Shown here in pieces: positions 8,016 to 27,498 of a DNA stretch of 33,526 nt (positions are counted from its first letter, which is position 1; each line of letters starts with the position of its first letter). Origin of the DNA: Melioribacteraceae bacterium (lineage in GTDB: Bacteria > Bacteroidota > Ignavibacteria > Ignavibacteriales > Melioribacteraceae). The stretch covers positions 1 to 33,526 of the forward strand of contig JAOADJ010000043.1 of assembly GCA_026417375.1 (NCBI GenBank), given 5' to 3'. A program made the position numbers and the translations under genes. The notes beneath the pieces are model-generated. The model ran no database searches. It saw only the letters and a program-made list of their open reading frames with translations, and was not told where the DNA came from.

Positions 8016-8228
8016 ATGATTTCATTTTTTAATTCATGGCTACCATATTTATATCTTTATGTTGGGGGAGGTTTGTTTTTTTTAGCAGGATTGATTTTAA
8101 TAAGAAAAACAAAAGCAATTGATATGAGATTAAAAAGAGATCGTTTTTGGTGGAAAGTTATGATATTTGGTTTTTTCTATTTCGCTTTTTTTCATGCAAT
8201 TTTAATAATAGCAGCATTATACTGGTGA
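8016..8228 (+). CDS. Small two-helix membrane protein beside the symporter
   Basis: A 70-residue protein with two hydrophobic segments (about 8-28 and 48-69) joined by a basic loop rich in K and R, so both ends probably face outward. AAAGGA (8005-8010) precedes the ATG at good spacing. Its stop lies 7 bases before the sodium symporter, so the two form one unit. Small partner proteins are known for several sodium:solute symporters (for instance the DUF4212 and DUF997 types), but I cannot match this one to either. A role as a subunit or stabiliser of the symporter is an inference from position only. Confidence 0.72.
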   Translation: MISFFNSWLPYLYLYVGGGLFFLAGLILIRKTKAIDMRLKRDRFWWKVMIFGFFYFAFFHAILIIAALYW

Positions 8229-8235
8229 GAAAATT

Positions 8236-10350: not shown

Positions 10351-10369
10351 AGTATCAGTATTTCTTCTT

Positions 10370-10402
10370 TAAAGTGGCAAAGAATTTTTCTATGCCACTT
10401 TA
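10370..10402. terminator. Bidirectional terminator between convergent genes
   Basis: TAAAGTGGCA (10370-10379) and TGCCACTTTA (10393-10402) make a perfect 10-bp stem with a 13-base loop, in the 53-base gap between the converging symporter and PorQ-like genes. T-rich DNA flanks the stem on both strands. Confidence 0.8.
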
Positions 10403-10403
10403 T

Positions 10404-11510: not shown

Positions 11511-12997
11511 TTTGACCTTTCAAAAAATAATTCTGTAAAAATAAAATCGGGAGAATTAGGAACTTCAATTGTAAAATGTTTAATATTTGCATTAAAGTCC
11601 ATATCAAATTTTACCCAACCACGAGTAAGAAAATCATCTTCCCAATCAATATAAAAAGTATCGAAGTGATAATGTTTTAATTCACCTTTGAAAGTTGGTG
11701 ATGGCAAAAATTGAAGAAATAATTTTCCATCTTTTAATAAAACTTCAGCTTTGCCATACATTTTATCTTCATAGATTCCACAATATTTTTCCAATGGTAA
11801 AGAAGATTTTGTATTTTTAATTCTAACTTCTTCTCTTCTTTTATTTTCTTTTTCAAAATTTTCAATTCTTCTTTTCCAATTTTCCAACATAGTTTTGTTC
11901 CAATCTTTTGCTTCAGGCAAAAAGAATGTTTCCATTATATAGTTTCTAATTGCAGTTACCATTCCAGTTTCTGAATTGCTTAAAATTACTAAACCAAAAT
12001 TTTCTTCAGGAATAATTGAAACATCTGAAATCATACCAGGCATTCCTCCACCATGATTTAATAATTTTTTCCCATTCCAATATCTGATAAACCAACCAAG
12101 TCCATAATTCATATTTTCAATTGGAGTTTGATTCGACCACATTTCATTTGCTTGTCGTTCACTAAAAATTTGTTTTCCGTTGAATTTCCCTTTTTTAAGT
12201 TGAAGACGAATCCATTTTGACATATCATTAACATTAGAATTAATTGCACCAGCAGGGGCAACAGTTTCAATTGAATAAAAATCTTTGAATGTTGTTAATT
12301 TATCATTTTCATATTTATGTGGAAAAGCAAAATTGCCGAGTTTTTTCATCTCATCAATCGAAGTTGTGGTTCTGTTCAACCCAAGAGGATTAAAGAAATG
12401 AGCTTTAATGTAATCGCTCCAAATTGTGTCTGTTACAACAGGAATTATTTCTCCAGCAACACTAAACATAATATTCTGATAACCATATTTGCTTCTAAAA
12501 CTTGAAGTTGGTTTCAAAAACTTTGCACGTTTTATTACTTCTTTTGAATTATAAGTAGAACCTAACCACAGAATATCTCCGCTAAAAGTAGCCAAACCAC
12601 TTCGATGAGTTACCAAATCTCTTATTGTAATTTCTTTAGTAACATAAGTATCATACATTTGAAAAGAGGGGAGAAAATCAATTACTTTATCATCCCAATT
12701 AATTTTGCCACGATCAACCAATGTTGCAAGTGCAGCAGTAGTAAATGCTTTTGAGCAAGATGCAATCATAAAATTCGTATTTTCATCAACTGGTTCATTT
12801 GTACGGATATCTCTAACTCCATATCCTTTTGAAAAAATCAGAGAATCATTTTTAACAATTGCAACAGCAAAACCTGGCATTTTCCAATCATTCATTGACT
12901 TTTGTATATAATTATCAATTTTTTCAAGTTTTTCATTTCCTTGAGAAAAAGTTAATGTTACATATAAAAAGAATAATAGAAATAATTTTGACTTCAT
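11507..12997 (-). CDS. Serine hydrolase, class C beta-lactamase fold
   Basis: A 496-residue exported protein. Residues 1-18 form a signal peptide (ending FSQ). The beta-lactamase-related domain covers about 22-360 with the full active-site set: SCSK (S80 nucleophile, K83), YQN (Y173-N175) and HGG (315-317). A C-terminal beta-rich region (about 395-496) resembles the DUF3471-type domain often fused to this group. Members include D-aminopeptidases, esterases and penicillin-binding-like proteins; true resistance activity is unlikely from sequence alone. It is translated together with the PorQ-like protein downstream. It faces the pectinesterase gene across a 163-base divergent promoter region. 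Confidence 0.9.
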   Translation of the reverse strand: MKSKLFLLFFLYVTLTFSQGNEKLEKIDNYIQKSMNDWKMPGFAVAIVKNDSLIFSKGYGVRDIRTNEPVDENTNFMIASCSKAFTTAALATLVDRGKINWDDKVIDFLPSFQMYDTYVTKEITIRDLVTHRSGLATFSGDILWLGSTYNSKEVIKRAKFLKPTSSFRSKYGYQNIMFSVAGEIIPVVTDTIWSDYIKAHFFNPLGLNRTTTSIDEMKKLGNFAFPHKYENDKLTTFKDFYSIETVAPAGAINSNVNDMSKWIRLQLKKGKFNGKQIFSERQANEMWSNQTPIENMNYGLGWFIRYWNGKKLLNHGGGMPGMISDVSIIPEENFGLVILSNSETGMVTAIRNYIMETFFLPEAKDWNKTMLENWKRRIENFEKENKRREEVRIKNTKSSLPLEKYCGIYEDKMYGKAEVLLKDGKLFLQFLPSPTFKGELKHYHFDTFYIDWEDDFLTRGWVKFDMDFNANIKHFTIEVPNSPDFIFTELFFERSK

Positions 12998-13160: not shown

Positions 13161-15644
13161 ATGAAAAAAATACTTTTCTTATTGATTGTTTTATTTTCAA
13201 ATAATTTTTCTCAAGATTTCTCAGCTTTTTGGAAAATGGATGCAACAACTCAAAATGCAGTAACTGTCTCAGGAGCAATTTTAGCAAATGACCAAAAAAT
13301 TGTCGGGTTAGGTATTAATGGTTGGGCTGGAAATAACAATGCAGCAAAACTTTATTCAACAACCGGCGGAAACACAGTTTTAGGTTTTTGGCCAAATGAA
13401 AATGAATATAATTCTGAAAGATATGCTGAATACTTAGTGAAAGCCAAAAATAATGGTTCGTTAAAAGTTAGCAACATAAAATTTGAAATTGGAAATAGCG
13501 GTGGATCGGATAATTTAAGGGCAGACTTTTTTTATAGCACAGATGATTTTAAAACATCAACCAGAATTGGAACAACTGTTTCATTATTAAATAAAGCAAT
13601 GCAAACAATTGAATTTTCTTCATTAAATGTAACTGCAGAGAATGGAAAATCTTTTACTTTTAGAATTTTTCTTTGGGCAACAAATGGTGGAGCAACTTCA
13701 GGAAAATATGCAAACATTCAAAACTTAGAAATAAAGGGAACAACATCAGGTGCATCGGTTGAATTACCATCAATTTCAACAAATGCGGCAACATATGTTT
13801 CAACTACATTTTTAACAATTGGTGGAAAAATTACTTCTGATGGTGGCGCTAATATTGATTCACGTGGAGTTTGTTGGAATTCAACAGGTTCACCAACTAT
13901 TAATAATAGCAAAATTAATCTTGGTAATGGTGTCGGAACATTTTCCACTAAAATTCAAACTTTGCAACCAAATACAACTTACTATTTCAGAGCTTTTGCT
14001 ACAAATAGTGCTGGCACTGCCTATGGAAATGAAATAGTTGTAACAACATTAGCTCAAAAAACAGTGCCTAAAATTACTACAACGGCAATTAGTAATATAT
14101 TAGCAAAGTCTGCTCAATCAGGTGGAAATATTTCAGATTGGGGTGGTGATAGTATAAAGGTAAAAGGCATTTGTTGGAGTAAAAATCAAAATCCTACAAT
14201 TAATAATTCATTTACGGAAAATGGAAGTGATATTTCTACTTTTACTTCGGTAATGTCAAATTTAGAACCATCAACTACTTATTATGTTCGTGCTTATGCA
14301 ATAAATTCAATTGGTATTGGATATGGAAATGAATTATCATTTACAACACAAGCTGTTGCTCCGAATGTTAAAAAAGTAGTTGCTAAAGATGGTAGTGGTG
14401 ATTACAAAACAGTTCAGGAAGCATTTGATAATGTTCCAGATTTTTATACAGGTACATGGACTATTTTTGTTAAAAAAGGTACTTACAAAGAAAAATTACT
14501 TCTTTCATCAAAAAAAGTAAATGTTATTCTTGAAGGAGAAGATAGAGATAATACAATACTTACTTATGATGATTATTCAGGCAGGGTTGTAAATGGTGTT
14601 ACATTAGGTACATCAACTTCATATAGTGTAGCAATTGATGCAAGTGATTTCATTGCAAAGAATATAACATTTCAAAATACTTCAACTGTAGCTCAGGCTG
14701 TTGCTTTAAGAATTCAAGGTGACAGACATTCATTTTATAATTGCAAATTACTTGGATATCAAGATACATATTATACTTGGGGTGGAAGTGGTGTAGGAAG
14801 AAGTTACATGAAAAATTGTTTTATCGAAGGGTCAGTTGATTTTATTTTTGGTAGAAATATAGTTGTTTTTGATAACTGTACAATTAATATAAACCGAAAC
14901 GCAGGAACTTTAACAGCAGCAAGTACAGATGAATCATCAAAATTTGGGTACGTATTCTTAAATTGTAAAATAACATATAATAAAATAGGTTTTGACAATA
15001 ACCCAATCACTTCATTTTATTTAGGAAGACCATGGCAAAATTCACCAAGGACTGTTTTTATAAAATGTGAAGAACCCGATGCACTTAACGCACAAGGTTG
15101 GCTAACATGGAATGTTACTCCAGCATTATATGCTGAATATAAATGTTATGGTGCGGGCTCAGATTTTTCAAAAAGATTAAATATTTCAAGACAATTAACT
15201 GATAATGAAGCAAAAGATTACAACATTAAAAATATTTTCTCAAAAAATTCTTCGCCTTCTTTCAGCAATGATTGGCTTCCTGATACAACAATAACTACTT
15301 CAATTAAAAACGAAAATGATGTAGGTTTTATTCCAAATGATTTTGAATTGTACCAGAATTATCCAAATCCTTTTAATCCCGAAACTGTAATTAAATATAA
15401 AATTCCATCAAATAATATTTCTAACGATAAACTTTTTGTTACATTAAAAATTTATGATGTAATTGGAAACGACATTGCAACACTTGTTAATGATTATCAA
15501 ACTCCGGGAATTTATAACTATAATTTTTCTCTCACTAATCATAAATTATCAAGTGGGGTTTACTTTTATCAATTAATTGTAAAAAATATTTCAAACAATG
15601 AATACTTGTTTTCAAGCACAAAAAAATTTGTTTTGATGAAGTGA
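13161..15644 (+). CDS. Secreted pectin methylesterase (CE8), T9SS cargo
   Basis: An 827-residue enzyme that removes methyl esters from pectin outside the cell. Order: signal peptide 1-18; an unassigned beta-sandwich about 20-195; two repeats of about 95 residues (about 200-395), each with RGVCWN/KGICWS and the close TTYYFRAFATNS/TTYYVRAYAINS, like fibronectin III; pectinesterase domain about 405-690. The catalytic set is complete: Q512 in AQAVAL, D535 in GYQDT, D560 in VDFIFG, and R623 in LGRPW. The sorting tail starts at Q732 (QNYPNPFNPET), marking it for T9SS export and surface attachment. It is the first gene of the plus-strand polysaccharide locus, behind a shared operator-like element. 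Confidence 0.95.
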   Translation: MKKILFLLIVLFSNNFSQDFSAFWKMDATTQNAVTVSGAILANDQKIVGLGINGWAGNNNAAKLYSTTGGNTVLGFWPNENEYNSERYAEYLVKAKNNGSLKVSNIKFEIGNSGGSDNLRADFFYSTDDFKTSTRIGTTVSLLNKAMQTIEFSSLNVTAENGKSFTFRIFLWATNGGATSGKYANIQNLEIKGTTSGASVELPSISTNAATYVSTTFLTIGGKITSDGGANIDSRGVCWNSTGSPTINNSKINLGNGVGTFSTKIQTLQPNTTYYFRAFATNSAGTAYGNEIVVTTLAQKTVPKITTTAISNILAKSAQSGGNISDWGGDSIKVKGICWSKNQNPTINNSFTENGSDISTFTSVMSNLEPSTTYYVRAYAINSIGIGYGNELSFTTQAVAPNVKKVVAKDGSGDYKTVQEAFDNVPDFYTGTWTIFVKKGTYKEKLLLSSKKVNVILEGEDRDNTILTYDDYSGRVVNGVTLGTSTSYSVAIDASDFIAKNITFQNTSTVAQAVALRIQGDRHSFYNCKLLGYQDTYYTWGGSGVGRSYMKNCFIEGSVDFIFGRNIVVFDNCTININRNAGTLTAASTDESSKFGYVFLNCKITYNKIGFDNNPITSFYLGRPWQNSPRTVFIKCEEPDALNAQGWLTWNVTPALYAEYKCYGAGSDFSKRLNISRQLTDNEAKDYNIKNIFSKNSSPSFSNDWLPDTTITTSIKNENDVGFIPNDFELYQNYPNPFNPETVIKYKIPSNNISNDKLFVTLKIYDVIGNDIATLVNDYQTPGIYNYNFSLTNHKLSSGVYFYQLIVKNISNNEYLFSSTKKFVLMK

Positions 15645-15655
15645 GTTTAAGTCTT

Positions 15656-15690
15656 TCTTTCCTTATCTTTATATGAAATTTTAGGAAAGA
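15656..15690 (+). promoter_or_regulatory. Hairpin covering the GH16 ribosome binding site
   Basis: TCTTTCCT (15656-15663) pairs perfectly with AGGAAAGA (15683-15690), 8 bp with a 19-base loop. The right arm is the Shine-Dalgarno-like sequence 5 bases before the GH16 start codon. It could limit GH16 translation or be chance in AT-rich DNA. Confidence 0.35.
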
Positions 15691-15695
15691 TATTA

Positions 15696-16748
15696 ATGAA
15701 AAAAGTTATTCTATTTATTACAATTATTATTTATTCAAATATATTTTCACAAAGCTGGAAATTAATTTGGTCAGATGAATTTGATGGACCGACAATAAAT
15801 TCATCTTTCTGGACTTTTGAAATTGGAACTGGTACAAATGGTTGGGGGAATAATGAACTTCAATATTATACAAGTAGAACAGAAAATGCTAAAATAGAAA
15901 ATGGAATGTTAGTTATAACAGCGCATCAAGAGCCATATAGTGGTAGAAATTATACAAGCGCCAGAATGAAAACACAAGGGAAAAAAAGTTTTAAATACGG
16001 AAAAATTGAAGCAAAAATGAAATTGCCTGTTGGTAAAGGTTCTTGGCCAGCTTTTTGGATGTTGGGGGATAATATTACTTTTGTAGGTTGGCCAAAATGT
16101 GGTGAAATTGATATAATGGAACATGTTAATAATGATCCTGCTGTTTATGGAACAATTCACTATGATAATAATGGACATGTCTCAAGAGGGGGAAATAAAA
16201 ATGTTGATGTTACAGATTTTCATTTATATTCAATCGAGTGGGATGCAAATACTATTAAGTGGTTTGTTGATGGTGTTCAATATTATTCTGTTTTTATTGT
16301 TAATGGAATTAATAGCACAGAAGAATTTCATAATCCATTTTTCATTATTCTTAATCTTGCAATTGGTGGTAATTGGCCCGGTAGTCCCGATGGAACAATG
16401 CAATTCCCAATTTATATGTATGTTGATTATGTAAGAGTTTATGAATTAACTACTAATATTGAAAAAATAAAAAATGAAATACCAAACGAAATTAAACTTG
16501 AACAAAATTTCCCAAATCCATTTAATCCAACGACAAATATTAAATTTTCAATACCTAACGATGCATTAACTAAATTAACAATTTATGATTTACTTGGAAA
16601 CGAGGTTGAAGTTCTTGTTAATAATTTTTTAACTGCAGGAAATTATAATTACAATTTTAACACCAAAGATCTGACAAGTGGAATTTATTTTTACAAATTA
16701 CAAGTTGGTAATTATGTACAAACCAAAAAAATGATATTATTAAAATAG
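15696..16748 (+). CDS. Secreted GH16 endo-beta-glucanase (laminarinase-like), T9SS cargo
   Basis: A 350-residue glycoside hydrolase of family 16, which cuts beta-1,3 or beta-1,3/1,4 glucans internally with retention. Residues 1-18 are a signal peptide. The GH16 domain (about 20-250) opens with KLIWSDEFDG and has the catalytic motif GEIDIMEH, giving E137 as nucleophile, D139 as helper and E142 as acid/base. ARMKTQGKKSFKYGK and GSWPAFWMLG are further family marks. The T9SS tail begins at Q270 (QNFPNPFNPTT). The tail is 83 residues long and aligns without gaps to that of the small secreted protein ending at 19297. Exact glucan specificity cannot be read from sequence. Confidence 0.94.
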   Translation: MKKVILFITIIIYSNIFSQSWKLIWSDEFDGPTINSSFWTFEIGTGTNGWGNNELQYYTSRTENAKIENGMLVITAHQEPYSGRNYTSARMKTQGKKSFKYGKIEAKMKLPVGKGSWPAFWMLGDNITFVGWPKCGEIDIMEHVNNDPAVYGTIHYDNNGHVSRGGNKNVDVTDFHLYSIEWDANTIKWFVDGVQYYSVFIVNGINSTEEFHNPFFIILNLAIGGNWPGSPDGTMQFPIYMYVDYVRVYELTTNIEKIKNEIPNEIKLEQNFPNPFNPTTNIKFSIPNDALTKLTIYDLLGNEVEVLVNNFLTAGNYNYNFNTKDLTSGIYFYKLQVGNYVQTKKMILLK

Positions 16749-16752
16749 AGCT

Positions 16753-18369
16753 ATGATTCATAATTTATTTCTCTTTTCATTCTTTTTATATTTTAACATT
16801 ACTTCCTCCACTCAAATCAGTTTTTCATTTCCTAAAAATTATCAAGATACATTAACCTATAAAAATCCAATAATTCATCAGGATTTCTCAGACCCGGATG
16901 TAATTCGTGTGGGTGATGATTATTTTATGACAGCATCAAGTTTTTCTCATTTTCCAGGGTTGCCAGTTTTACATTCAAAAGATTTAGTTAATTGGAGAAT
17001 TGTTTCTTATGCTGTAGATAAATATCCTTTCAAAGAATTTGAAAAACCGCAACATGGATGTGGAATTTGGGCACCTTCAATAAGATTTCACAATGGTGAA
17101 TATTATATTTTTTTTGGAGATCCCGATCATGGAATTTTAATGACAAAAACAAAAAATCCTTTTAGTAAATGGGAAAAATTGCATTTGGTAAAAGAAGCAA
17201 AAGGTTGGATTGATCCTTGTCCATTCTGGGATGATGATGGAAATGCTTATTTAATTCATGCTTGGGCAAGAAGCCGTTCTGGAATTAAACATAAATTAAC
17301 TATTAATAAATTAAGTAGTGATGGAAAAAATTTTTTAGATAATGGTGTTGATGTTTTTTGCGATTCAATAAATCATCCTACAACAGAGGGACCAAAACTT
17401 TATAAACGAAACGGTTATTATTACATTTTTGCTCCTGCTGGTGGAGTTAAATATGGTTGGCAAATTGTTCTGCGTTCAAAAAATATTTATGGTCCATATG
17501 AAGTAAAAAAAGTTTTAGAACAAGGTTCAACCAAAATTAACGGACCACATCAAGGAGCCTGGATTTCAACTCAAAACAATGAAGATTGGTTTATTCATTT
17601 TCAGGATAAATATTCGTATGGAAGAATTGTACATCTTCAACCAATGAAATGGGAAAATGATTGGCCTGTTATTGGAATTGATTTTGACCAAAATGGAATT
17701 GGTGAACCTGTTGAGAAATTCAATTTCCCAAATTTACCTTTGACTAATATTAAATTAAAAAAAAGTGATGATTTCAACGAATTAAAATTAGAGCATCAAT
17801 GGCAATGGCAAGCAAATTTTGATGAATCCTGGTTTTCATTAAATAAAAGAAAAGGTTGTTTAAGATTATTTTCAAAATTTAATAATGATAAAAACTTATA
17901 CAATGAACCAGCATTATTACTCCAGAAATTTCCGGATGAAAAATTTTCTGCAATAGTAAAAGTAGATTTAAACGGATTAAAAGAATTTTCAAGAGGTGGA
18001 TTAATAATTTTTGGAAAAGATTATTTTACTCTAAGTATTAAAAAAGAAAACAATAACTTCAAAATTTATCAGACCTCTTGCATTAATGCGGACAAAAATG
18101 TAGAAGAAGAAATGTTAGCTGAAAAATATTACAATGAAAAAATTATATACTTAAAAGTAAACGTAGAAAATGAAATGGACGAAAAATTAATTCCACTTGC
18201 TAAATGTATTTTTAGTTTTAGTAAAGATGGAAAAACTTTTGAACAGATTGGAAAAAGTTGTTTTGCAAAAGAAGGAATTTGGGTTGGAGCAAAACTAGGA
18301 TTGTTTTGTGTTTCTGAAAATGAAAATAAAAATTCATTTCTAGATTTTGATTGGATAAACATTAACTAA
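16753..18369 (+). CDS. GH43 beta-xylosidase/alpha-arabinofuranosidase
   Basis: A 538-residue family 43 glycoside hydrolase acting on xylan or arabinan side chains. A hydrophobic leader (1-20) is followed by the five-bladed catalytic domain (about 36-330). The catalytic residues are visible: base D47 in DFSDPDVIRVGDDYF, pKa-tuning D154 in WIDPCPFWDDDG, and acid E212 in TTEGPKLY. Residues about 340-538 match the C-terminal concanavalin-like domain usual in GH43 beta-xylosidases. Unlike its neighbours it has no T9SS tail, so it is probably periplasmic and handles oligosaccharides already imported. It starts 4 bases after the GH16 stop, so the two are translated together. Confidence 0.92.
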   Translation: MIHNLFLFSFFLYFNITSSTQISFSFPKNYQDTLTYKNPIIHQDFSDPDVIRVGDDYFMTASSFSHFPGLPVLHSKDLVNWRIVSYAVDKYPFKEFEKPQHGCGIWAPSIRFHNGEYYIFFGDPDHGILMTKTKNPFSKWEKLHLVKEAKGWIDPCPFWDDDGNAYLIHAWARSRSGIKHKLTINKLSSDGKNFLDNGVDVFCDSINHPTTEGPKLYKRNGYYYIFAPAGGVKYGWQIVLRSKNIYGPYEVKKVLEQGSTKINGPHQGAWISTQNNEDWFIHFQDKYSYGRIVHLQPMKWENDWPVIGIDFDQNGIGEPVEKFNFPNLPLTNIKLKKSDDFNELKLEHQWQWQANFDESWFSLNKRKGCLRLFSKFNNDKNLYNEPALLLQKFPDEKFSAIVKVDLNGLKEFSRGGLIIFGKDYFTLSIKKENNNFKIYQTSCINADKNVEEEMLAEKYYNEKIIYLKVNVENEMDEKLIPLAKCIFSFSKDGKTFEQIGKSCFAKEGIWVGAKLGLFCVSENENKNSFLDFDWININ

Positions 18370-18377
18370 TTTTTTCC

Positions 18378-18430
18378 TTGACAATAAAATATTTTTTACA
18401 CAATTTAGTTAGCGATAAAGTAAACTATAA
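18378..18430 (+). promoter_or_regulatory. Promoter/operator of the pectin locus, copy 2
   Basis: TTGACA (18378-18383), 17 bases, CAATTTA (18401), then ATAAAGTAAAC (18415-18425), one base, and ATAA (18427-18430). Spacing is identical to the copy at 13098-13150; the last 30 bases agree at 25 positions by hand count. It sits in the only sizeable gap (73 bases) within the locus and is followed by GGAGG and the ATG at 18443. It probably starts a second transcript under the same control. Confidence 0.65.
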
Positions 18431-18442
18431 TATGGAGGAAAA

Positions 18443-19297
18443 ATGAAAAATTTATTTTTACTTTTATTTGTATTTTTAACTTCTTCTGCAATTCTTTTTG
18501 CACAAGATACATACTTCACAGAAACTTTTGATGATACTTCATCTGTAATTCCAAAAAGTTCACCTGGTCCAACTACACCAACAAAATATAAATTAGAACG
18601 TTCAGGAGAATGGACATTTTTAGGTGTTTATTTGGGTGGTTCAACAAATGGATGTGGTACAATTACAACTACTTCAAGAACTTTAAGAATGCCAAAAATT
18701 TCGACAGTACAAGGTGCAGGAATAACCCCACCATGTTATGCAATTTCTCCAAAATTAAGTGGTGTTGGTAAAGTATCGTTTAAAGAAGGAAGAGGTGGTG
18801 CTTCAAGAATTATCTCTGTTTATAAATCTACTGATGATGGAGCAACATGGACATTGGTTGGAAAAACAGATCAAGGTACTACAAAATGTGTTGAAATATC
18901 TTATACTGTAAATGATTCAAAAGCAAACAGAATAAAATTTGCAAATGAAAGTGATGCCGGTGATGTTGACCTTGAAGATGTTGTAATTACAAAATCAACT
19001 GGTGTTTCTGTTGAAAATATTGAAACTATACCAACTCAATATATTCTTGAGCAAAATTATCCAAATCCTTTCAATCCGGAAACAAATATTAAATTTTCAA
19101 TTCCAAAAGATGGATTAACAAAATTAGCAGTTTATGATTTACTTGGTAATGAAATTGCAACTATTGTTAATAAATATTTATCAGCTGGAAATTATTCATT
19201 CAGTTTTAATGCAAAAGATTTTCCAAGTGGTATTTATTTATATCAGTTGAATATTAATGGTTTGATGTTTACAAAGAAAATGATGCTTGTGAAATAA
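18443..19297 (+). CDS. Small secreted beta-sandwich protein, T9SS cargo, function unknown
   Basis: A 284-residue protein that I do not recognise as an enzyme. Residues 1-21 form a signal peptide (ending FAQ). Residues about 22-195 are strand-rich with YKSTDDGATWTLVGKT and a closing DVDLEDVVI, the pattern of lectin-like or carbohydrate-binding beta-sandwiches. A similar segment (YSTDDFKTSTRIGTT) occurs in the N-terminal domain of the pectinesterase. No catalytic signature was seen. The T9SS tail starts at Q204 (QNYPNPFNPET). A strong GGAGG precedes the start, and the promoter element of the locus lies just upstream. Its place right before the pectate lyase suggests a surface pectin-binding role, which is inference. 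Confidence 0.85.
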   Translation: MKNLFLLLFVFLTSSAILFAQDTYFTETFDDTSSVIPKSSPGPTTPTKYKLERSGEWTFLGVYLGGSTNGCGTITTTSRTLRMPKISTVQGAGITPPCYAISPKLSGVGKVSFKEGRGGASRIISVYKSTDDGATWTLVGKTDQGTTKCVEISYTVNDSKANRIKFANESDAGDVDLEDVVITKSTGVSVENIETIPTQYILEQNYPNPFNPETNIKFSIPKDGLTKLAVYDLLGNEIATIVNKYLSAGNYSFSFNAKDFPSGIYLYQLNINGLMFTKKMMLVK

Positions 19298-19301
19298 TAT
19301 T

Positions 19302-20951
19302 ATGAAAAAAATTTTTTTTCTTTTCCTTTTCGCTGAATTAATAATTGCACAACAATTAGCTTTTCCGGGTGCAGAAGGTTTTGGTAAATATACTACTGGT
19401 GGAAGAGGTGGAATTGTTTACGAAGTGACAAATTTAAATGATTCAGGACCTGGAAGTTTGAGAGATGCTCTCTCAAAAACAGGTCCTATTACAATTATTT
19501 TCAGAGTCTCTGGCACTATCGAATTAAAATCTCCTCTTAAAGTTACTAAACCAAATGTTACAATTGCAGGACAAACAGCACCGGGCGATGGAATTTGTTT
19601 AAGCAATTATACTTTTTCAGTTCAGGCTAATAATGTTATTATAAGATATCTTCGTTTTAGATTGGGTGATTTAACAAAGTATGAAAATGATGCGGCAAAT
19701 GGAATGGGTTATTACAAAAATATAATTCTCGATCATTGTTCATTTAGTTGGTCAATTGATGAATGTGCAAGTTTTTACAACAATGAAAATTTCACAATGC
19801 AATGGTGTTTAATTTCTGAAAGTTTATATAATTCATTTCATTCAAAAGGGGCACATGGTTATGGTGGAATTTGGGGTGGTAAAAATGCAACTTTTCATCA
19901 CAATTTATTAGCACATCATTCAAGTAGAAACCCTAGATTTGCAGGAGGAGAAACACCCGTTTGTGAAAATGTTGATTTCAGAAATAATGTAATTTACAAT
20001 TGGGGTTCAAATAGTGCTTACGGTGGTGAAGCTGGTAAAATTAATATTGTTGCCAACTATTATAAATTTGGTCCTGCAACTAAATCTGGTGTAAAGTACA
20101 GAATAATTGATATTTCTGATACTGCAAGTGCATGGTTTGTTAAGGATAATTTTGTTTTTGATAGCCCAGTAATTTCAAGTGATAATTGGAATGGTGGTGT
20201 TCAAGGAACTCAAGCTAATTTTCACAAAAACAATAAAAAAAGATCTACCCCTTTTCCATTTGAGCCAATTAATCAACAAACTGCAGAAGAAGCTTATAAT
20301 TTAGTTTTACAAAATGCAGGTTGTGTTCTTCCTAAAAGAGATCCGATTGATGAAAGAATTATTAGTGAAGTTAAAAATGGAACATCTACCTATGGTGGAA
20401 TTTGGGGCGCTGGAAAAGGGATTATTGATTCACAAAAAGAAGTTGGTGGATGGCCTATATTAAATTCTACAAATCCTCCAATTGATAATGACAAAGATGG
20501 TATGGCTGATAGTTGGGAAATTTCTAAAGGATTAAATCCAAATAATCCTGATGACAGAAATTTAGTTGATTCTTCCGGCTACACAATGCTTGAATTATAT
20601 CTAAATGGAATAGTTGATGGAACTGTCGTTTCAGTTGAAAATAATAATCAACTTCCAATTGATTTTAAATTATTTCAAAACTTTCCTAACCCGTTTAATC
20701 CTACAACTAATATTAAATATGAAATTCCTCATATTGATATAAACGGGGAAAAAACAAATCAGAAAGTTAAATTGAGTATTTATGATACTCTTGGAAATGA
20801 AGTAGCAATATTGGTAAATGAAATTCAAAAACCCGGATTTTATAATTATTCATTTTCATCAAAACATTATTCATTATCTAGTGGGGTTTATTTTTATAAA
20901 TTACAAATTGGTAAATATTCAGAAGTAAAAAAAATGATTTTAATGAAGTAA
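19302..20951 (+). CDS. Secreted pectate lyase (PL1-like), T9SS cargo
   Basis: A 549-residue lyase that cleaves de-esterified pectin by beta-elimination with calcium. Order: signal peptide 1-17; parallel beta-helix about 18-380, opening with AFPGAEGFG and TGGRGG, then NDSGPGSLRDAL, TIAGQTAPGDG, DHCSFSWSIDE and HHSSRNPRF, with the aspartates and arginine expected to bind calcium and act as base; a calcium-loop segment of thrombospondin-3 type (DNDKDGMADSWEISKGLNP, about 395-415); T9SS tail from Q459 (QNFPNPFNPTT). Its tail carries an extra linker, as in the pectinesterase. It follows the small beta-sandwich gene by 4 bases and acts after the esterase in pectin breakdown. Confidence 0.94.
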   Translation: MKKIFFLFLFAELIIAQQLAFPGAEGFGKYTTGGRGGIVYEVTNLNDSGPGSLRDALSKTGPITIIFRVSGTIELKSPLKVTKPNVTIAGQTAPGDGICLSNYTFSVQANNVIIRYLRFRLGDLTKYENDAANGMGYYKNIILDHCSFSWSIDECASFYNNENFTMQWCLISESLYNSFHSKGAHGYGGIWGGKNATFHHNLLAHHSSRNPRFAGGETPVCENVDFRNNVIYNWGSNSAYGGEAGKINIVANYYKFGPATKSGVKYRIIDISDTASAWFVKDNFVFDSPVISSDNWNGGVQGTQANFHKNNKKRSTPFPFEPINQQTAEEAYNLVLQNAGCVLPKRDPIDERIISEVKNGTSTYGGIWGAGKGIIDSQKEVGGWPILNSTNPPIDNDKDGMADSWEISKGLNPNNPDDRNLVDSSGYTMLELYLNGIVDGTVVSVENNNQLPIDFKLFQNFPNPFNPTTNIKYEIPHIDINGEKTNQKVKLSIYDTLGNEVAILVNEIQKPGFYNYSFSSKHYSLSSGVYFYKLQIGKYSEVKKMILMK

Positions 20952-20978
20952 TTTTTTCACTTTTATTGGGAGAATAAA

Positions 20979-23900
20979 ATGCACCGTAGATTAATTTCGG
21001 TGAAAAACCTTTCCTTCATTTTTTTATTAATTACAATCTTATCGCAATTACAATTAGCACAAACAAGAAGTAGAATTATGGGAGTTGTTAAAGATTCTCA
21101 AACAAAAGAGGAATTAATAGGTGCTAATGTAATTGTTAAAGGTACTTATCTTGGAGCTGCAACTGATGTTGAAGGAAAGTTTATTATTATTAACGTTCCT
21201 GTTGGAACTTATGACTTAACAGTTTCTATGGTTGGTTATACAACTAAAACATTAAATAGAGTAATAGTTTCTGCAGATCGGGTGACTTCTCTTGAAATAT
21301 TTTTAGAACCAGCAACTATTCAAGGGCAAGAAGTAATTGTAACAGCAAAAGCTGATGAATTGCATAAGGAAGTTTCAAATACACAAATGGTTGTTTCATC
21401 AGATCAACTACAGGAAGCTTCAGGAGTTAGACAAATTAATGCATTTCTTTCAAAACTTCCCGGTATAGCAGAGTCAAATGGATTTTTAACAATTCGTGGT
21501 GGTTCTGCTGATCAAACTGGTACTATGGTTAATGGATTAGCCTATAATAACGCAGCTGTTGGTAATGCAGAAACTTCAATTCCAATGAGTGCAGTTGAAC
21601 AAATATCATTGTTATCGGGTGGCTATAATGCTGAATATGGTAATTTTCGTTCTGGGTTAATTAACATTACAACAAAAAGTGGATCACGTGATTCATATAA
21701 AGGAACTTTTAGTTTTTCAAGAAATACTGCTCATTTAAAAAGATTTGGTGATTCATTTTATGACCCAAATAATTCTTTATTAAGACCATTTTTATCTCCT
21801 GAGGTTGCTTTTGTTGGAACTTCAACTGCCTGGGCAAATGATGAATATAAACGAGGACAACACTTAGCATTTACAGGATGGATTGCACAAGCAAAAACTT
21901 ATAATACAGGTAAACCCGCTTCACAACAGGCTTCCCCTTATGATATGTTTTTATTGGCTAACTGGCTTCATATGACAATTCCAGATTATGAAGGTTTATC
22001 TAAACTTTCACCGGAATTAAAAGCTCAAATTGGTTACTATGAATTATCAGATGAGCAGAAAAAAGCTTTTAAAGATCATCATATGACAGAAGAAGGAATG
22101 GATTGGAATTTTGATGGTGGATTTGGTGGACCTGTTCCATTCATAGGCAAATATTTAGGTAATGCAACTTTTTATATTTCAAATTCATCAAGTGAACAAT
22201 TTTATGTTCAACCAGTTGTAAGAAAAAGTCAACAAATATTTACAACTCTCGGAACATTAAAATCTCAACCCACAGAGAATTTAACTTTGACATATAATGG
22301 TTTATGGAAAAGACAATTAGGAGTTTCACCGGCAAGGCCACCACAAGGTGATGCACCAAATGCTGGCAATTCGGGTGGTTTTATGCAAATTGATAATGTT
22401 CGTCATATTGCTTTAAGAACTGAAGCTAATTTGAAATATGCTTATGATCCTCCTTTCTTTCCAATGCTTGATCAAACAACCTATATGCATGGATTAACAA
22501 TAAATCATGTATTAAGCAAAAGAACATTTTATGAATTGTCATTAAGTTATTTACATATTTATGATCATTCTCCAATAGGTGATAATCGTGATTCAACTGT
22601 TATTACAAAATTTGGTCCTTTTCTTGTTAATGAAATTCCTTATGGAAAATTACAATTTGGTTCTCGTGCTATTCGTGGCGTAACTTACCCAATTTATGTT
22701 GCACTACCAGGTTTGCCCTTTTCTTACATGAGTAAAGAAGGTGATTTATACGATAATATAAAAGTTACTCAAGCCCGTGTTAAATTTGATATTTCTTCAC
22801 AGGTTGATGATAATAATTTTGTTAAAGCTGGAATTGAATATAATTACATTGATTTGAAACATAACTTCTGGGAAAAATGGAACAACAATGCATATAACAC
22901 TTATGAATTTAATTTCCATAGATGGCCAAGTCAAACAGCTTTATATGTGCAAGATCAAATCAATTACAATGAAATAGTTGCAAACATTGGTGTTCGTTTC
23001 GATTACTATTACAACGGTGGTGGAAAATGGCCAACCGGTGATCCATTTAATGAATCAATGTTCCGACCTCAAAAGGTGGATACTTCTCTTTACAGATATT
23101 TAGCTTCAGGTCGCTCTTACATTTGGGATATCTGGGAAGCTTATGATAGAAATAATCCCGGATTTTTACAACCAATTAAAAACTTTTATGCTATAAGTCC
23201 AAGAATTGGTGTTTCATTTCCGATTACTGTTGATTCAAAATTTTATTTTAATTACGGACATTTCAGATCAAATCCACCTTATTACACAATGTATCAATAT
23301 CGTTACAGATATGATAAAAATGGATTATATGATATGTCTAATCCAAATCTTGAACCACCAAGAACAATTTCATATGAACTAGGTGTAGCATACAATTTTT
23401 ATGAAAATTATATTTTACAAATTTCCGGTTATTCAAAAGATGTAACAGGTGAAGCTGGAACAGTTACATTTAAAAATGCTGCAGGAACACTTAATTATAC
23501 CAACAGAGCAAATAATCAATATCAGGATATTCAAGGTTTGGAAATCAATATTTCAAAAAATGATTTTAGCTGGATAACAGGCTGGTTGAACTTTAATTAT
23601 ATGTTAAAGAAGAATGGATTGACAGGAAGAAGTTTAATTACTGATTTAACAATCAATAACGATCAGGAAGGTTTATATGCTGGCAATGAAACAAAAACAT
23701 TACCACAACCAGAATTTAATGCTAATATAACTTTTAAAACTCCAGCTGATTGGGGACCAGAATTTTTAGGAACTGGATTATTAGGAAATTGGAATATTAC
23801 ATTATTTGCTTCTTATGCAGCAGGAGATTATTTCACCTGGAATCCACTTGGTAAACTTCATTATACAAACAACTTGCAATGGCCGGATTATTACATGGTT

Positions 23901-24245
23901 GATTTAAAGATTACTAAAGCATTTAAATTTGCCGGAATAACTGCTTCATTCTTTCTGGATATAAGTAATTTATTTAACATTAAGGTAAGTATGTTAAATA
24001 ATGGTTATGCTTTTTATGATGCAAACGATAGAAGTAAATACTTAGCTTCTTTACGTTTACCGATGTATGATTCACCTGAATATGATGATCTACGTGCGAA
24101 AAATCCCGGTAGCTATATTCCTGGTAAAGATAAAGTTGGAGATTTAAGAAGTGCTGATAAACCATATATCAATGATCCAAATTATGATTTCTGGCTTTTC
24201 AGATCACCAAGAGATATTTGGTTTGGTGTTCGTGTTGATTTTTAA
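20979..24245 (+). CDS. TonB-dependent receptor with carboxypeptidase-regulatory-like domain
   Basis: A 1088-residue outer-membrane receptor for energised import of large ligands, here probably pectin oligosaccharides. Signal peptide about 1-27; carboxypeptidase-regulatory-like domain about 31-115 (GVVKDSQTKEELIGANVIV, DVEGKFIIINVPVGTYDLTV), as in SusC proteins; plug about 120-240 (VIVTAKADEL, LPGIAESNGFLTIRGGSAD, GGYNAEYGNFRSGLINITTK); the rest is a large barrel ending in the aromatic WFGVRVDF. GGGAG precedes the ATG. It is followed by a 739-residue surface protein and a PorV-family gene rather than susD. Substrate is inferred from the flanking enzymes only. Confidence 0.93.
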   Translation: MHRRLISVKNLSFIFLLITILSQLQLAQTRSRIMGVVKDSQTKEELIGANVIVKGTYLGAATDVEGKFIIINVPVGTYDLTVSMVGYTTKTLNRVIVSADRVTSLEIFLEPATIQGQEVIVTAKADELHKEVSNTQMVVSSDQLQEASGVRQINAFLSKLPGIAESNGFLTIRGGSADQTGTMVNGLAYNNAAVGNAETSIPMSAVEQISLLSGGYNAEYGNFRSGLINITTKSGSRDSYKGTFSFSRNTAHLKRFGDSFYDPNNSLLRPFLSPEVAFVGTSTAWANDEYKRGQHLAFTGWIAQAKTYNTGKPASQQASPYDMFLLANWLHMTIPDYEGLSKLSPELKAQIGYYELSDEQKKAFKDHHMTEEGMDWNFDGGFGGPVPFIGKYLGNATFYISNSSSEQFYVQPVVRKSQQIFTTLGTLKSQPTENLTLTYNGLWKRQLGVSPARPPQGDAPNAGNSGGFMQIDNVRHIALRTEANLKYAYDPPFFPMLDQTTYMHGLTINHVLSKRTFYELSLSYLHIYDHSPIGDNRDSTVITKFGPFLVNEIPYGKLQFGSRAIRGVTYPIYVALPGLPFSYMSKEGDLYDNIKVTQARVKFDISSQVDDNNFVKAGIEYNYIDLKHNFWEKWNNNAYNTYEFNFHRWPSQTALYVQDQINYNEIVANIGVRFDYYYNGGGKWPTGDPFNESMFRPQKVDTSLYRYLASGRSYIWDIWEAYDRNNPGFLQPIKNFYAISPRIGVSFPITVDSKFYFNYGHFRSNPPYYTMYQYRYRYDKNGLYDMSNPNLEPPRTISYELGVAYNFYENYILQISGYSKDVTGEAGTVTFKNAAGTLNYTNRANNQYQDIQGLEINISKNDFSWITGWLNFNYMLKKNGLTGRSLITDLTINNDQEGLYAGNETKTLPQPEFNANITFKTPADWGPEFLGTGLLGNWNITLFASYAAGDYFTWNPLGKLHYTNNLQWPDYYMVDLKITKAFKFAGITASFFLDISNLFNIKVSMLNNGYAFYDANDRSKYLASLRLPMYDSPEYDDLRAKNPGSYIPGKDKVGDLRSADKPYINDPNYDFWLFRSPRDIWFGVRVDF

Positions 24246-24269
24246 TTAGAAGAAAAATTGGAGATATAA

Positions 24270-26489
24270 ATGAAACTGAATTTTAATTACTCAAAAAAAA
24301 CATTCTTAAAAATTTTTCTTTTAATGCAAGGAATTATTTTCTTTTTGAATGTTAATGTTAATGCTCAACTTGTTCAAAAAACTGCTTCGATGCGTGTAGG
24401 TAGATTCTGGATTGGAATTACAGATAATGGTGACAGAGGAAATTTTTCTTTTACTAGTGGATTCTTTCCTAATGATTATGATGTTTTAGGTATTCGTGGA
24501 CAGTATGCACAAGCAAATACCGGAACAGGATTTTTAATTGCTACATTAATGTTTAATAATCCTTATGAAACAGATCCAAAGAAAAAAATTGATACTGTTG
24601 CTGTTTGGGGTTTAACTAATCAATATATGCCAACAGGTAAAGTAGTTTCTCCCTTAACAAATTATATTCGTTATAAATATCCACAACAAGTAATTTATAA
24701 TCCAACCAAAACCGAAACAGTTACTTTACAAGATTTTGGAACTTATGATCCATCAAAATTTAAAGATGGTACTTACGATCAGATTGTTGAAGTTACAAAT
24801 GAATATATTTATGGAATAACACTTAAAAGAAAAATCTTGGGATGGAGTCAAAATTTTAATGATAACTATGTAATCTTTGATTTGGAATTTACAAATAACA
24901 GTAATCAAACTTATGATAGTTTATTCATTCAAATGAATACTAATTTAAACAATGGTGAATTTTCGAATGGCAGAAATCCCGGACCACAGGGAAATGAAAT
25001 TGGATTTGAACCACAAAAAGCATGGCAACATTATCATGGAGCAAGAGCAAGTGATACATTAATGACTTTTTATAATGGAAAAGTAAAAGGAAAGATGAGA
25101 GTGTTTTATGAATATGGAGCTGATGATCCTACCCGACCAGGTGATAATATGGGAGCTCCGTTATTAAGTCAAAATGGTAGATTAGTTGGTGCTGGAATGC
25201 ATTTTTATACAATTCTTCATGCTTCAAAAAGTGCTTATACAAATCCACAAGATGATAAAGATGATTTTCTTCAACCAAGAATAACTTATACCGGAAATGG
25301 TTCACAACTTCCTTATACATCAACTGGAGATCCATACGGAGATAAAAACTTTTGGGCAATGCGTGGCGGATTATATCAGTTTTCTAAAATGAGTGGAAAT
25401 ACTTTTTCTAATACATATCATAGTATAAATAACGATGAACTAGGTAAAACAGAGTGGTTTAATTATCCGGGTGGTTCACAAGCAGAAAATTTTATGTTCT
25501 CAAGTTTCGGACCTTATAAATTAGCCCCCGGACAAAAAGTAAGAATTGTTTATGCATCTGGTTGGGCTGGCTTAGATCCTAAAACAGCTCACGATGTTGG
25601 TAAAAAATGGTTAAAAGGAACATTACAAAATCCTCCGAATATGCCAAACTCAAATACAGGTTGGTTACCATCAAACTTTGCATTTCCTAATGATGCAACA
25701 GAAATGGATAAAAGAAAAGATCGTTGGGTAAGTAGCGGAATTGATTCAGTTATGTTAACTGCCTATCGTGCTAAATGGAATTTTGAGCGAGGTTATAAAA
25801 TTCCACAGGCTCCACCACCACCATCGATGATTACTATTGCAGCTTATGGTGACGGTACTGAAATTTCCTGGGTTGGAACTGAAGCAGAAAATTTTCCGAA
25901 TTTTGCCGGATATAGAATTATGAGAAGAGTTTCTAATCAAGATACAACTTATTATGAAACAATTTATGATTCAGATAAAAATGATAAAGCTGCTACACAT
26001 AAATTTATTGATAAAACTGTTTTAGCTTTAGGGCAATATTATTATTACATTCAATCAAAAGCTAAAATAGATGAAAATGATTTAAATGCTGATCCAACAA
26101 CTCGCGGCAAAATAATTTATAGCGGTCGCGTTTTTGTTCCAAATATTTATTGGGTTAATCCTCCAAGACTTTCACAAGATGATCTTTCAAAAATCAGAAT
26201 TGCTCCAAACCCATATAACATTAATGATCCATTATTAAGAACTTATGGTTACACAGATCAACGGGCAATTAATTTTTACAATTTACCAGCTACTTGCGAT
26301 ATTAAAATTTTTACAGAAAATGGTGACTTGATTAAAACAATTAAACATGATAGCAAAGTGAGAGCAGGTAGTGAAACCTGGGATATGATAACCGATAGCC
26401 AACAAGTAATAAGCAGCGGTGTTTATATTGCTGTGATTCAAAAGCCAACTGGTGAAAGTACTTACTTAAAATTTATTGTTGTGCGTTAA
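24270..26489 (+). CDS. Large secreted protein with FnIII-like domain and FlgD-like C-terminus
   Basis: A 739-residue exported protein of unknown function. Signal peptide about 1-32 (ending VNAQ); a long unassigned beta-rich region about 35-510; a fibronectin III-like domain about 515-630 (SMITIAAYGDGTEISW, FAGYRIMRR, QYYYYIQSKAK); and a C-terminal FlgD-like domain starting near R643 (RIAPNPYNI), with IKIFTENGDLIKTI and SSGVYIAVIQ, resembling a variant T9SS sorting domain. It lacks helical TPR signatures, so it is not SusD. It lies between the receptor and the PorV-family gene with 24- and 16-base gaps and a good GGAGA site. A surface ligand-binding partner of the receptor is plausible but unproven. 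Confidence 0.85.
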   Translation: MKLNFNYSKKTFLKIFLLMQGIIFFLNVNVNAQLVQKTASMRVGRFWIGITDNGDRGNFSFTSGFFPNDYDVLGIRGQYAQANTGTGFLIATLMFNNPYETDPKKKIDTVAVWGLTNQYMPTGKVVSPLTNYIRYKYPQQVIYNPTKTETVTLQDFGTYDPSKFKDGTYDQIVEVTNEYIYGITLKRKILGWSQNFNDNYVIFDLEFTNNSNQTYDSLFIQMNTNLNNGEFSNGRNPGPQGNEIGFEPQKAWQHYHGARASDTLMTFYNGKVKGKMRVFYEYGADDPTRPGDNMGAPLLSQNGRLVGAGMHFYTILHASKSAYTNPQDDKDDFLQPRITYTGNGSQLPYTSTGDPYGDKNFWAMRGGLYQFSKMSGNTFSNTYHSINNDELGKTEWFNYPGGSQAENFMFSSFGPYKLAPGQKVRIVYASGWAGLDPKTAHDVGKKWLKGTLQNPPNMPNSNTGWLPSNFAFPNDATEMDKRKDRWVSSGIDSVMLTAYRAKWNFERGYKIPQAPPPPSMITIAAYGDGTEISWVGTEAENFPNFAGYRIMRRVSNQDTTYYETIYDSDKNDKAATHKFIDKTVLALGQYYYYIQSKAKIDENDLNADPTTRGKIIYSGRVFVPNIYWVNPPRLSQDDLSKIRIAPNPYNINDPLLRTYGYTDQRAINFYNLPATCDIKIFTENGDLIKTIKHDSKVRAGSETWDMITDSQQVISSGVYIAVIQKPTGESTYLKFIVVR

Positions 26490-26505
26490 GAGAAGGAGAA
26501 ATATT

Positions 26506-27498
26506 ATGAAAAAAATAAATTATTTATTTCTTATTGTTTTATTTACTTCATCAATTTTTGCTCAGGTTGGACTAAATAAACTTGCACAAAGCACAATGAA
26601 TTTCCAATTAGTAAGTATCTCACCTAAAGCAAGCTCAATGGGTGAAGCTTTTTATTCAATTGGTGTTGGTTCTGAAAGTGTTTTTTATAATCCGGCAGGA
26701 TTATCATTAACAAAACATCAATATGATGTAACATTAAATTATACTCAATGGATTGCAGATATAAATTATTTAGGTGGTGCAGTTTCATACAATTTAGATA
26801 ATTATGGTACTGTTGCTTTAAGTGCTTTGACAGTTGATTATGGAACTATCTATGGAACACAATTAGACCCTTTAAGTTCAAGTCCAACAGGATATATTGA
26901 AACTGGAAATGTTAGCAATGTTGGTGCATATTCTTTTGGGCTAAGCTATGCTAAATCTATCAATGAAAAATTTTCGATTGGTGGTAATGTAAGATTAGTT
27001 GGACAAAATTTAGGAACTAATACTTTTGTAAGTGGAATTTCAAAAGAGAATAAAGCTACTAAATTAGTTTTTGATGCAGGTGTACTTTACAATACTGGAT
27101 TTAAAAACTTCAGATTTGGAATGGCAATAAGAAATTTTTCATCTAACATTAAAAGAGAAGAAATTTCTGAACAACTTCCTTTAACATTTACAATGGGTGG
27201 CGCTATTGATGTTTTGAAATTTATTAATGATAATGAAAATGATGAATTGACTTTTGCAATTGATTTTTTACATTCCAATTCATATTCGGAAAGAATTAAT
27301 ATTGGTGCAGAATATAAATTTCTGGGAATGGTTTCTTTGAGAGCAGGTTATCAAACTAACCGTGATATAGCATCATGGTCTGCTGGTGTTGGATTTTATA
27401 CAATTCTTTCAGATTATAATTTAGAAGTAAATTACTCGTTTTCTAAAATGGAAATTTTTAATAACGTAAACAGACTTTCATTGAATATTGGATTATAA
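26506..27498 (+). CDS. PorV-family outer-membrane protein
   Basis: A 330-residue protein with signal peptide 1-20 (ending IFAQ). ISPKASSMGEAFYS and VFYNPAGLS are the hallmark N-terminal motifs of the PorV/LptO family, a 14-strand FadL-like barrel. PorV delivers T9SS cargo to the PorU sortase; whether this copy does so or binds the receptor complex is unknown. The start at 26506 is chosen because AGAAGGAGAA (26491-26500) precedes it and it opens a proper signal peptide. The frame also extends to a TTG at 26476, inside the previous gene, adding ten basic residues that would spoil the signal. Last gene of the locus, followed by two hairpins. Confidence 0.88.
   Translation: MKKINYLFLIVLFTSSIFAQVGLNKLAQSTMNFQLVSISPKASSMGEAFYSIGVGSESVFYNPAGLSLTKHQYDVTLNYTQWIADINYLGGAVSYNLDNYGTVALSALTVDYGTIYGTQLDPLSSSPTGYIETGNVSNVGAYSFGLSYAKSINEKFSIGGNVRLVGQNLGTNTFVSGISKENKATKLVFDAGVLYNTGFKNFRFGMAIRNFSSNIKREEISEQLPLTFTMGGAIDVLKFINDNENDELTFAIDFLHSNSYSERINIGAEYKFLGMVSLRAGYQTNRDIASWSAGVGFYTILSDYNLEVNYSFSKMEIFNNVNRLSLNIGL

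Follow-up and report, generated by a model that had tools for sequence, protein, structure and literature searches.

A SusD-less pectin locus with a conserved trio of TonB-dependent receptor, T9SS-type surface protein and PorV-family barrel in a Melioribacteraceae bacterium

Introduction

How might a bacterium import the products of a polysaccharide when its degradation locus encodes a TonB-dependent receptor and no SusD? This question is raised by a pectin locus at positions 13161-27498 of the window, i.e., the whole 33,526-nucleotide stretch of DNA that was analysed (contig JAOADJ010000043.1 of assembly GCA_026417375.1, here contig C24), which comes from a Melioribacteraceae bacterium of the Ignavibacteria with a genome of 2.83 Mb on 58 contigs (99% complete). 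The locus ends in three plus-strand genes encoding a TonB-dependent receptor (T; 20979..24245, 1088 aa) with CarbopepD_reg_2, plug and barrel (PF13715, 71.7 bits; PF07715, 39.6 bits), a secreted partner protein (C; 24270..26489, 739 aa) and an outer-membrane barrel of the PorV/PorQ family (V; 26506..27498, 330 aa), the start codon of which is most likely ATG at 26506 rather than TTG at 26476.

A preliminary description, made from the sequence letters, had proposed a SusD-less pectin/hemicellulose utilisation locus built around cargo of the type IX secretion system (T9SS), possibly an alternative locus design in Ignavibacteria. Here, we describe T, C and V as a unit that is conserved across several phyla. 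We consider it probable, though by no means secure, that the locus serves pectin uptake via a TonB importer whose glycan-binding partner would be delivered by the T9SS and a dedicated PorV paralogue.

Conservation of the T-C-V unit

Matches to C occur in 57 of 58 genomes (our own and 57 relatives), many of them to the C-terminal tail alone. In 20 stretches fetched around the better matches, a TonB receptor always lies beside C, and a PorV-family gene is present in 19; in the one remaining stretch (L088), the 5.8 kb contig ends just past C. A public scan of named genomes covered at least 579 stretches and at least 527 relatives, with at least 76 loci kept, of which 75 were scored (L131 was omitted, the open reading frame (ORF) picker having taken the other strand); seven of the 75 lack an upstream ORF. 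Among the matches listed, to which all counts for these public loci refer, T lies directly upstream of C in 67 of the 68 loci with an upstream ORF, at a median gap of 24.5 bases, the sole exception (L158) having two C genes in a row. V is located within three genes on the same strand in 67/75 loci, namely 38/39 window-type and 29/36 sister-type loci, the boundary between these types being an identity step between L156 and L157 that was fixed before the neighbours were annotated. At some loci (L099, L103, L104) the order is V-T-C, with linkage and T-C adjacency retained. Record titles of trio-bearing loci name Ignavibacteria, candidate division KSB1, Calditrichota, Neomarinimicrobiota and Kryptoniota.

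Because trio linkage is conserved across phyla, a chance run of three genes is ruled out; T-C-V is a conserved unit. The supposed alternative design does recur, and its restriction to Ignavibacteria was too narrow in view of the other phyla. A promoter and terminator scan gave no excess over shuffled sequences (82 versus a mean of 84.3, and 2 versus 5.3, respectively) and is silent on operon ends.

Our own genome holds six trios, in the window and on contigs C50, C35, C19, C30 and C5, the receptor of the last being cut by the contig end. The trio of contig C50 is of the window kind (C of about 700 aa), while in the other four, C measures 1034-1224 aa and T, where whole, about 900 aa; the tails of these large C proteins are of the kind seen in the window, and no Pfam domain in them exceeds its cut-off. 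Among the five non-window trios, four (contigs C50, C35, C19 and C30) had their neighbours scanned, and three have glycan neighbours, comprising GHL10 next to a lipobox protein with a TIG domain and a gene for a sensor kinase with regulator propellers (contig C50), GH16 with malectin, CBM9, a sodium symporter and GH2 (contig C35), and a CBM48-like T9SS protein with its SusE/F model below cut-off (contig C19); the trio of contig C30 neighbours an FG-GAP T9SS protein. With five further trios, three of them beside other glycan genes, the design is not tied to pectin. The trio is real, conserved and general.

The receptor T

T had been credited with a SusC-like N-terminus, which is correct for residues 33-252, the only part matched by the SusC/RagA profile TIGR04056. 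T is not a SusC by the family profiles (TIGR04056, TIGR04057), however; it scores 67.3 bits with TIGR04056 against a curated cut-off of 368.25, while the own SusC on contig C38 passes as a positive control (412.5; signature 49.5). Our genome's four other trio receptors score 55.6-86.8, and one receptor of a third kind of trio (see below) 88.2. Profile comparison groups T with general TonB-dependent transporters, and its structure model (predicted local distance difference test (pLDDT) 80.6) likewise resembles the transporter barrels PirA, BtuB and Cir with Z of about 30, which indicates an ordinary plugged transporter barrel. Residues 269-367 of the model (window 21783-22079) form a helix-rich insert that is possibly an outer loop and, as such, may offer C a docking surface.

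No SusD is present among the ten window proteins scanned with Pfam, including all eight of the locus. The locus is thus SusD-less, as described before, but the genome is not, because one SusC/SusD pair is located on contig C38 (7286-11432), with SusD directly downstream of a receptor that passes both the SusC cut-off and the signature. A whole-genome search with PF07980 returned this single match and PF12771 none.

The surface protein C

C has no Pfam family match, and its build was deduced from a single-chain structure model (pLDDT 75.6, predicted template-modelling score 0.76) and its homologues. Residues 44-513 resemble the N-terminal supersandwich of cellodextrin/cellobiose phosphorylases (GH94) and GH116 (Z 13-14; about 225-260 residues at a root-mean-square deviation (rmsd) of about 4), residues 513-633 form an FN3 domain, and residues 637-739 an Ig-like C-terminal signal domain (CTD) of the PorZ/PorU type (PorZ CTD 5m11: Z 12.2, rmsd 2.5, 85 aligned residues, 24% identity; PorU CTD 6za2: Z 10.6). 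This domain (26166..26489, plus strand; NPYN ... SGVYIAVIQ ... KFIVVR) can be aligned with the type A tails of the neighbouring enzymes, which end in K-x-x-x-x-K versus K-F-x-V-V-R in C. The standard tail profiles PF18962 and TIGR04183 do not match C at E 0.001, and a single-sequence search of solved structures with the tail gave unrelated matches only, so that structural comparison was needed. On the basis of the model, C is predicted to end in a T9SS-type domain of a variant form that the standard profiles overlook. K734 and R739 are invariant across 23 homologues; in the Flavobacterium johnsoniae translocon, PorV is contacted by a conserved CTD lysine (PMC10994853), of which K734 may be the counterpart.

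In a simple scan, no lipobox was found in C, the signal peptide of which ends in NVNAQ, with no Cys; C hence differs from the lipid-anchored surface partner of SusC/SusD systems. A SusD homologue is rejected on the grounds of the missing Pfam match and the mainly beta model. SusD-type structures are also absent among the structure matches listed for C, which on its own excludes nothing.

C could also be a free-standing, T9SS-exported glycan-binding or enzyme-like surface protein, with T importing oligosaccharides alone; the genes would then be co-transcribed for a common substrate, and their products would form no complex. We regard this as unlikely, if far from negligible. Supersandwich domains are known from enzymes, other T9SS surface proteins are encoded in the locus, and five further receptors of our genome have a type A tailed neighbour (one of them GH18) and no PorV; yet the T-C adjacency is near invariant and is kept where the position of V changes, whereas the most widespread other neighbour cluster reaches 30/39 window-type loci, in varying places.

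The barrel V and the PorV family

V belongs to the PorV/PorQ family according to NF033709 (172.8 bits, cut-off 90); its Pfam PorV score (PF19572, 26.7 bits) is just below the cut-off of 27. A profile search yielded a single solved relative, the PorV found in the SprA translocon (6h3i, E 3.8e-18). There is no match to the PorP/SprF family, the Pfam scan at E 0.001 yielding PF19572 only. The true PorV of our genome is found on contig C36, scoring 255.6 with the equivalog NF033710 (cut-off 250), beside PorU (PF01364, 313 bits), which provides T9SS parts in this organism. V is accordingly classified, by sequence, as a locus-bound paralogue of the T9SS shuttle PorV. Our genome contains 17 PorV-family matches including fragments, ten of them over cut-off; in the fetched stretches, six of these ten lie in trios, one is the true PorV and three are outside trios.

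All 58 genomes carry PorV-family matches, 9-31 each, fragments included; as at most 30 candidates were scored per genome, the largest counts are lower bounds. SusD, counted across genomes by PF07980 only, amounts to 22 matches in 17 of the 58. In 20 genomes reached via named loci, mostly titled as other phyla of the Fibrobacteres-Chlorobi-Bacteroidetes (FCB) group, 13-53 PorV-family matches each and eight SusD matches in seven genomes were found.

Twenty further PorV loci were sampled. From the rows that came next in the list once the best PorV of each genome had been set aside, one in five (counted by hand) and the final one were taken, so that the sample consists of high-scoring matches. Eighteen have a TonB receptor as neighbour, and the two exceptions, situated at contig edges, adjoin variant-tail cargo, which is present at all 20; PorV-receptor adjacency within two genes would be expected by chance for about 3% per PorV (rough estimate from 22 receptors and ~2,600 genes). 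Twelve loci are of the large-C kind, while eight show a third conserved arrangement, with the gene order cargo, T9SS protein, 500-aa protein, T and V. In these eight (L193, L198-L202, L206, L211), variant-tail cargo is accompanied by a T9SS-tailed 700-aa protein, the 500-aa protein, a receptor of 935-957 aa and PorV, with an additional gene of about 360 aa in seven; L211 ends in PorV. The 500-aa protein had no Pfam match in the one case tested.

In a PorV tree of 115 rows, made by a quick method and with long branches, window-kind PorVs form one clade of 83 rows plus one unlabelled row from the trio-bearing locus L172 (support 99), and PorVs of the third kind another (7 rows, support 99). PorV clades thus follow the trio kind for two of the three kinds, which have kept their own PorV lineage. 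The window-type subset is one clade of 42 rows including V (SH-aLRT 100), with rows titled Ignavibacteriota, KSB1, Calditrichota, Kryptoniota and Neomarinimicrobiota. Within this Ignavibacteria-rich clade, the window-type PorVs of KSB1, Calditrichota and Neomarinimicrobiota (L123, L124, L126, L129, L130, L134, L136) cluster together with support 94 (not starred), which may reflect transfer of the locus between phyla.

Enzymes of the locus and association with pectin

The eight plus-strand genes reported earlier are confirmed in their positions by the ORF listing and family profiles, with intergenic gaps of 4-73 bases, and the locus is a pectin locus. Upstream of the trio and on the same strand, it encodes a pectin methylesterase with FN3-like repeats (13161..15644, 827 aa; PF01095, 218 bits), a GH16 glycanase (15696..16748, 350 aa; PF00722, 81.8 bits), a glycosidase with GH43 and GH43_C2 domains (16753..18369, 538 aa; PF04616, 211 bits; PF17851, 122 bits), a surface protein recognised by PF18962 only, the N-terminal part of which has no assigned function (18443..19297, 284 aa), and a pectate-lyase-like protein (19302..20951, 549 aa). 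The T9SS tails attributed to the extracellular enzymes are of type A and occur in four of these five proteins. The GH16, 284-aa and lyase-like proteins match both tail profiles (PF18962 at 44.6, 38.5 and 32.3 bits, respectively), the pectin methylesterase is marginal, barely over cut-off (TIGR04183, 23.1 versus 23 bits), and the GH43 protein, presumably periplasmic, gave no tail match in a Pfam scan. The lyase is pectate-lyase-like, whereas its earlier placement in PL1 relies on scores below cut-off (PF00544, 21.1 of 24; the PelZ profile NF041900 likewise, 163.6 of 840). As in SusC/SusD-type loci, the enzymes (pectin methylesterase, pectate-lyase-like, GH43, GH16) fit one glycan; the pectin part of the original substrate assignment stands, while hemicellulose has GH16 and GH43 as its sole basis.

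In a direct comparison among the matches listed, at least one of six pectin genes is present at 33/39 window-type loci, 0/36 sister-type loci and 0/20 other PorV loci, and sister-type loci have TIG-domain proteins in 26/36 and GHL10 in 14/36; the comparison favours each group by construction, since window-type loci, the window's included, supplied the pectin probes, and the GHL10/TIG probes originate from contig C50, a sister-type locus. Three of the six window-type loci without pectin genes sit on contigs under 6 kb. Free of probe bias are Pfam counts, 25 families being shown per scan, for 122 genes that flank window-type trios, of which 63 lie upstream (the five of the window among them) and 59 downstream; these counts comprise GH88 (16), GH28 (11), pectinesterase (11), GH43 (9), UxaC (6) and PL9-like and PL10-like lyases; 2-keto-3-deoxy-6-phosphogluconate (KDPG) aldolase, PfkB kinase and LacI occur at several loci. 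The preliminary description had recommended searching related genomes for the trio beside carbohydrate enzymes, and there it indeed recurs.

The single GH88 and the single UxaC of our genome are both on contig C53, and from the gene set there (GH88, UxaC, KDPG aldolase and neighbours) the organism is plausibly able to use galacturonate. These genes belong to a second pectin locus (L215/L216, 75-98 kb) with GH88, a GDSL esterase, GH28, pectinesterase, DUF4861, UxaC and KDPG aldolase; it also holds a 999-aa receptor, a neighbouring 560-aa T9SS-tailed protein and, by eye only, a transporter-like protein, while the 40 kb retrieved contain neither SusD nor PorV.

The sorting of trio subfamilies with substrate genes is what importers should show, and it speaks against the trio serving secretion or assembly, with a TonB receptor that powers or gates the delivery of C and imports no nutrient. 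To this idea, we assign only a very small probability. It would suit the prediction of T, C and V as outer-membrane or surface proteins and the role of PorV-family proteins as secretion parts, while the ordinary plugged transporter barrel modelled for T is at odds with it.

Proposed mechanism

In the proposed mechanism, the T9SS-tailed pectinesterase, pectate-lyase-like protein and GH16 would attack pectic cell-wall material extracellularly. Going by what is known of the respective families, C would be exported across the outer membrane by the T9SS and taken over by V, its own PorV paralogue, acting as shuttle or anchor, so that C would be held on the cell surface beside T. The supersandwich domain of C may bind pectic oligosaccharides and pass them to T, on which C might sit as a lid, and T would draw them into the periplasm using TonB energy. 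There, degradation would be completed by GH43 together with enzymes from outside the locus, such as GH88, UxaC and further products of contig C53. The job of SusC/SusD would, thus, be done with a T9SS-delivered, non-lipoprotein partner in place of SusD.

Several results weigh against this proposal. V stays far below the cut-off of the true-shuttle PorV equivalog NF033710 (62.1 versus 250 bits), 8/75 scored loci have no V within three genes, and the PorVs of the large-C kind are not one clade, which argues against any simple rule there. As a whole chain, C had no match in Foldseek (template-modelling score under 0.2 by query length), and the supersandwich similarity is a domain match in a model and by itself no sign of glycan binding. 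Whether the C tail and PorV diverge together to a special degree, which would have proved their pairing, was tested twice with negative outcome; in length-matched distances, CTD and V rank last among ten region pairs (0.75, against 0.84 for T and the N-terminal domain of C), and the partial correlation of CTD and V is 0.02. Partial correlations are higher between T and V (0.52) and between T and the N-terminal domain of C (0.60), but these may stem from nothing more than T's length and are not used as support. The sequences, hence, indicate no extra coupling of C tail and V, with everything simply co-inherited, and, because of this, the dedicated-shuttle step draws on family membership and linkage only.

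The missed equivalog cut-off and the lack of additional CTD-V co-divergence would be in line with V being a passive FadL-type porin for sugar acids and C a cargo of the general PorV, and PorV is linked to the FadL fold. We consider this improbable, since a PorV is the only solved profile relative of V and since variant-tail cargo is encoded at the locus of every V-type gene sampled (20/20).

The proposed dedicated-PorV importer can be placed among known systems. With SusC/SusD importers, the trio shares a TonB receptor with a CarbopepD_reg_2 N-terminal extension, an adjacent surface partner gene, substrate-specific carbohydrate-active enzyme genes around it and, at the trio of contig C50, a sensor-kinase gene with regulator propellers. 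In contrast, its receptor is below the TIGR04056 cut-off, its partner is a beta-rich T9SS-type cargo without lipobox, whereas SusD is a helical lipoprotein, and a PorV paralogue is added. A precedent for a TonB transporter capped by a non-SusD surface protein is BtuB-BtuG of Bacteroides, a B12 transporter with the cap BtuG; BtuG is a lipoprotein, and lipoprotein-capped transporters are seemingly exclusive to Bacteroidetes, while the available text mentions neither a T9SS signal nor a PorV partner for BtuBG (PMC10404256). In F. johnsoniae, type A cargos all use a single PorV, whereas type B cargos commonly have a cognate PorP/SprF shuttle gene next door, the shuttle being proposed to accompany the cargo to its place (PMC12618676). 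The adjacency of cargo gene and own shuttle gene is shared with the trio, but the shuttle there is PorP/SprF, the cargos, which bear type B tails, are adhesins, known or predicted, and TonB is not mentioned in the text available (PMC12618676). PorV of the SprA translocon (6h3i; PMC10994853) is a general shuttle for type A cargo, and V differs from it as a locus-bound paralogue. The related Melioribacter roseus also has a TonB receptor in a glycan operon, a starch operon described as SusC, SusD and SusE, with pectin growth not confirmed and no trio described in the accessible part (PMC3534657). Ignavibacteriota are listed among possible T9SS carriers (PMC11285876).

A literature search revealed no paper linking PorV, Ignavibacteria and TonB-dependent, and a wider one of titles and abstract starts no description of the trio, subscription papers and preprints being outside the scope of both. 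The trio combines precedents (SusC/SusD, the BtuB-BtuG cap and cargo-specific PorP/SprF shuttles) in a combination not found described.

More tentatively, and with somewhat more doubt than belief, we suggest that capped TonB importers may comprise, alongside SusC/SusD, a second general class made up of T-C-V trios, whose cap would be assembled from outside by the T9SS and kept in place by a dedicated PorV paralogue. These trios, rather than SusC/SusD, might be the main polymer uptake route of Ignavibacteria, KSB1, Calditrichota and Neomarinimicrobiota, which would explain the 9 to 53 PorV-family matches per genome. If true, SusD lipoproteins would be only one of several ways to cap a TonB glycan importer, and the T9SS, known for enzyme and adhesin export, would also build import machines. 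A role would emerge for the large expansion of the PorV family seen in FCB phyla beyond Bacteroidia, and the trio would mark glycan-uptake loci that SusC/SusD-based searches for polysaccharide utilisation loci would overlook. For one trio subfamily, present in several phyla, pectic oligosaccharides are the predicted substrate.

Other receptors and neighbouring genes

Via CarbopepD_reg_2, 22 receptors were found in our genome, of which five belong to trios, five have a T9SS-tailed neighbour, one is SusC and eleven are others. Of these eleven, nine measure 720-830 aa, including one situated at a contig end, and two, on contig C38, are about 1080 aa long. The five with a T9SS-tailed neighbour (C53 twice, C26, C30 and C2; L217, L219, L222, L228, L215) have a type A tailed gene directly downstream and no PorV, one of these genes being the GH18 mentioned above; such a pair is a simpler SusD-less dyad. 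The two long proteins on contig C38 (L114:4045-7305 and 7605-10829) are tandem receptor-like proteins of 1080 aa with a CarbopepD_reg_2 start and no NCBIfam match at 1e-5.

The sensor-kinase gene on contig C50 (L085:14596-17688) encodes two-component regulator propellers, Y_Y_Y and histidine kinase domains. It is located near a trio rather than a SusC/SusD pair and recalls the sensors of Bacteroides glycan loci.

Ahead of the locus, the window contains another PorV-like barrel on the minus strand (10404-11510; NF033709, 67 bits, under the cut-off of 90) with no receptor adjoining. It overlaps the end of the gene at 11507-12997, which by eye resembles a beta-lactamase-type serine hydrolase.

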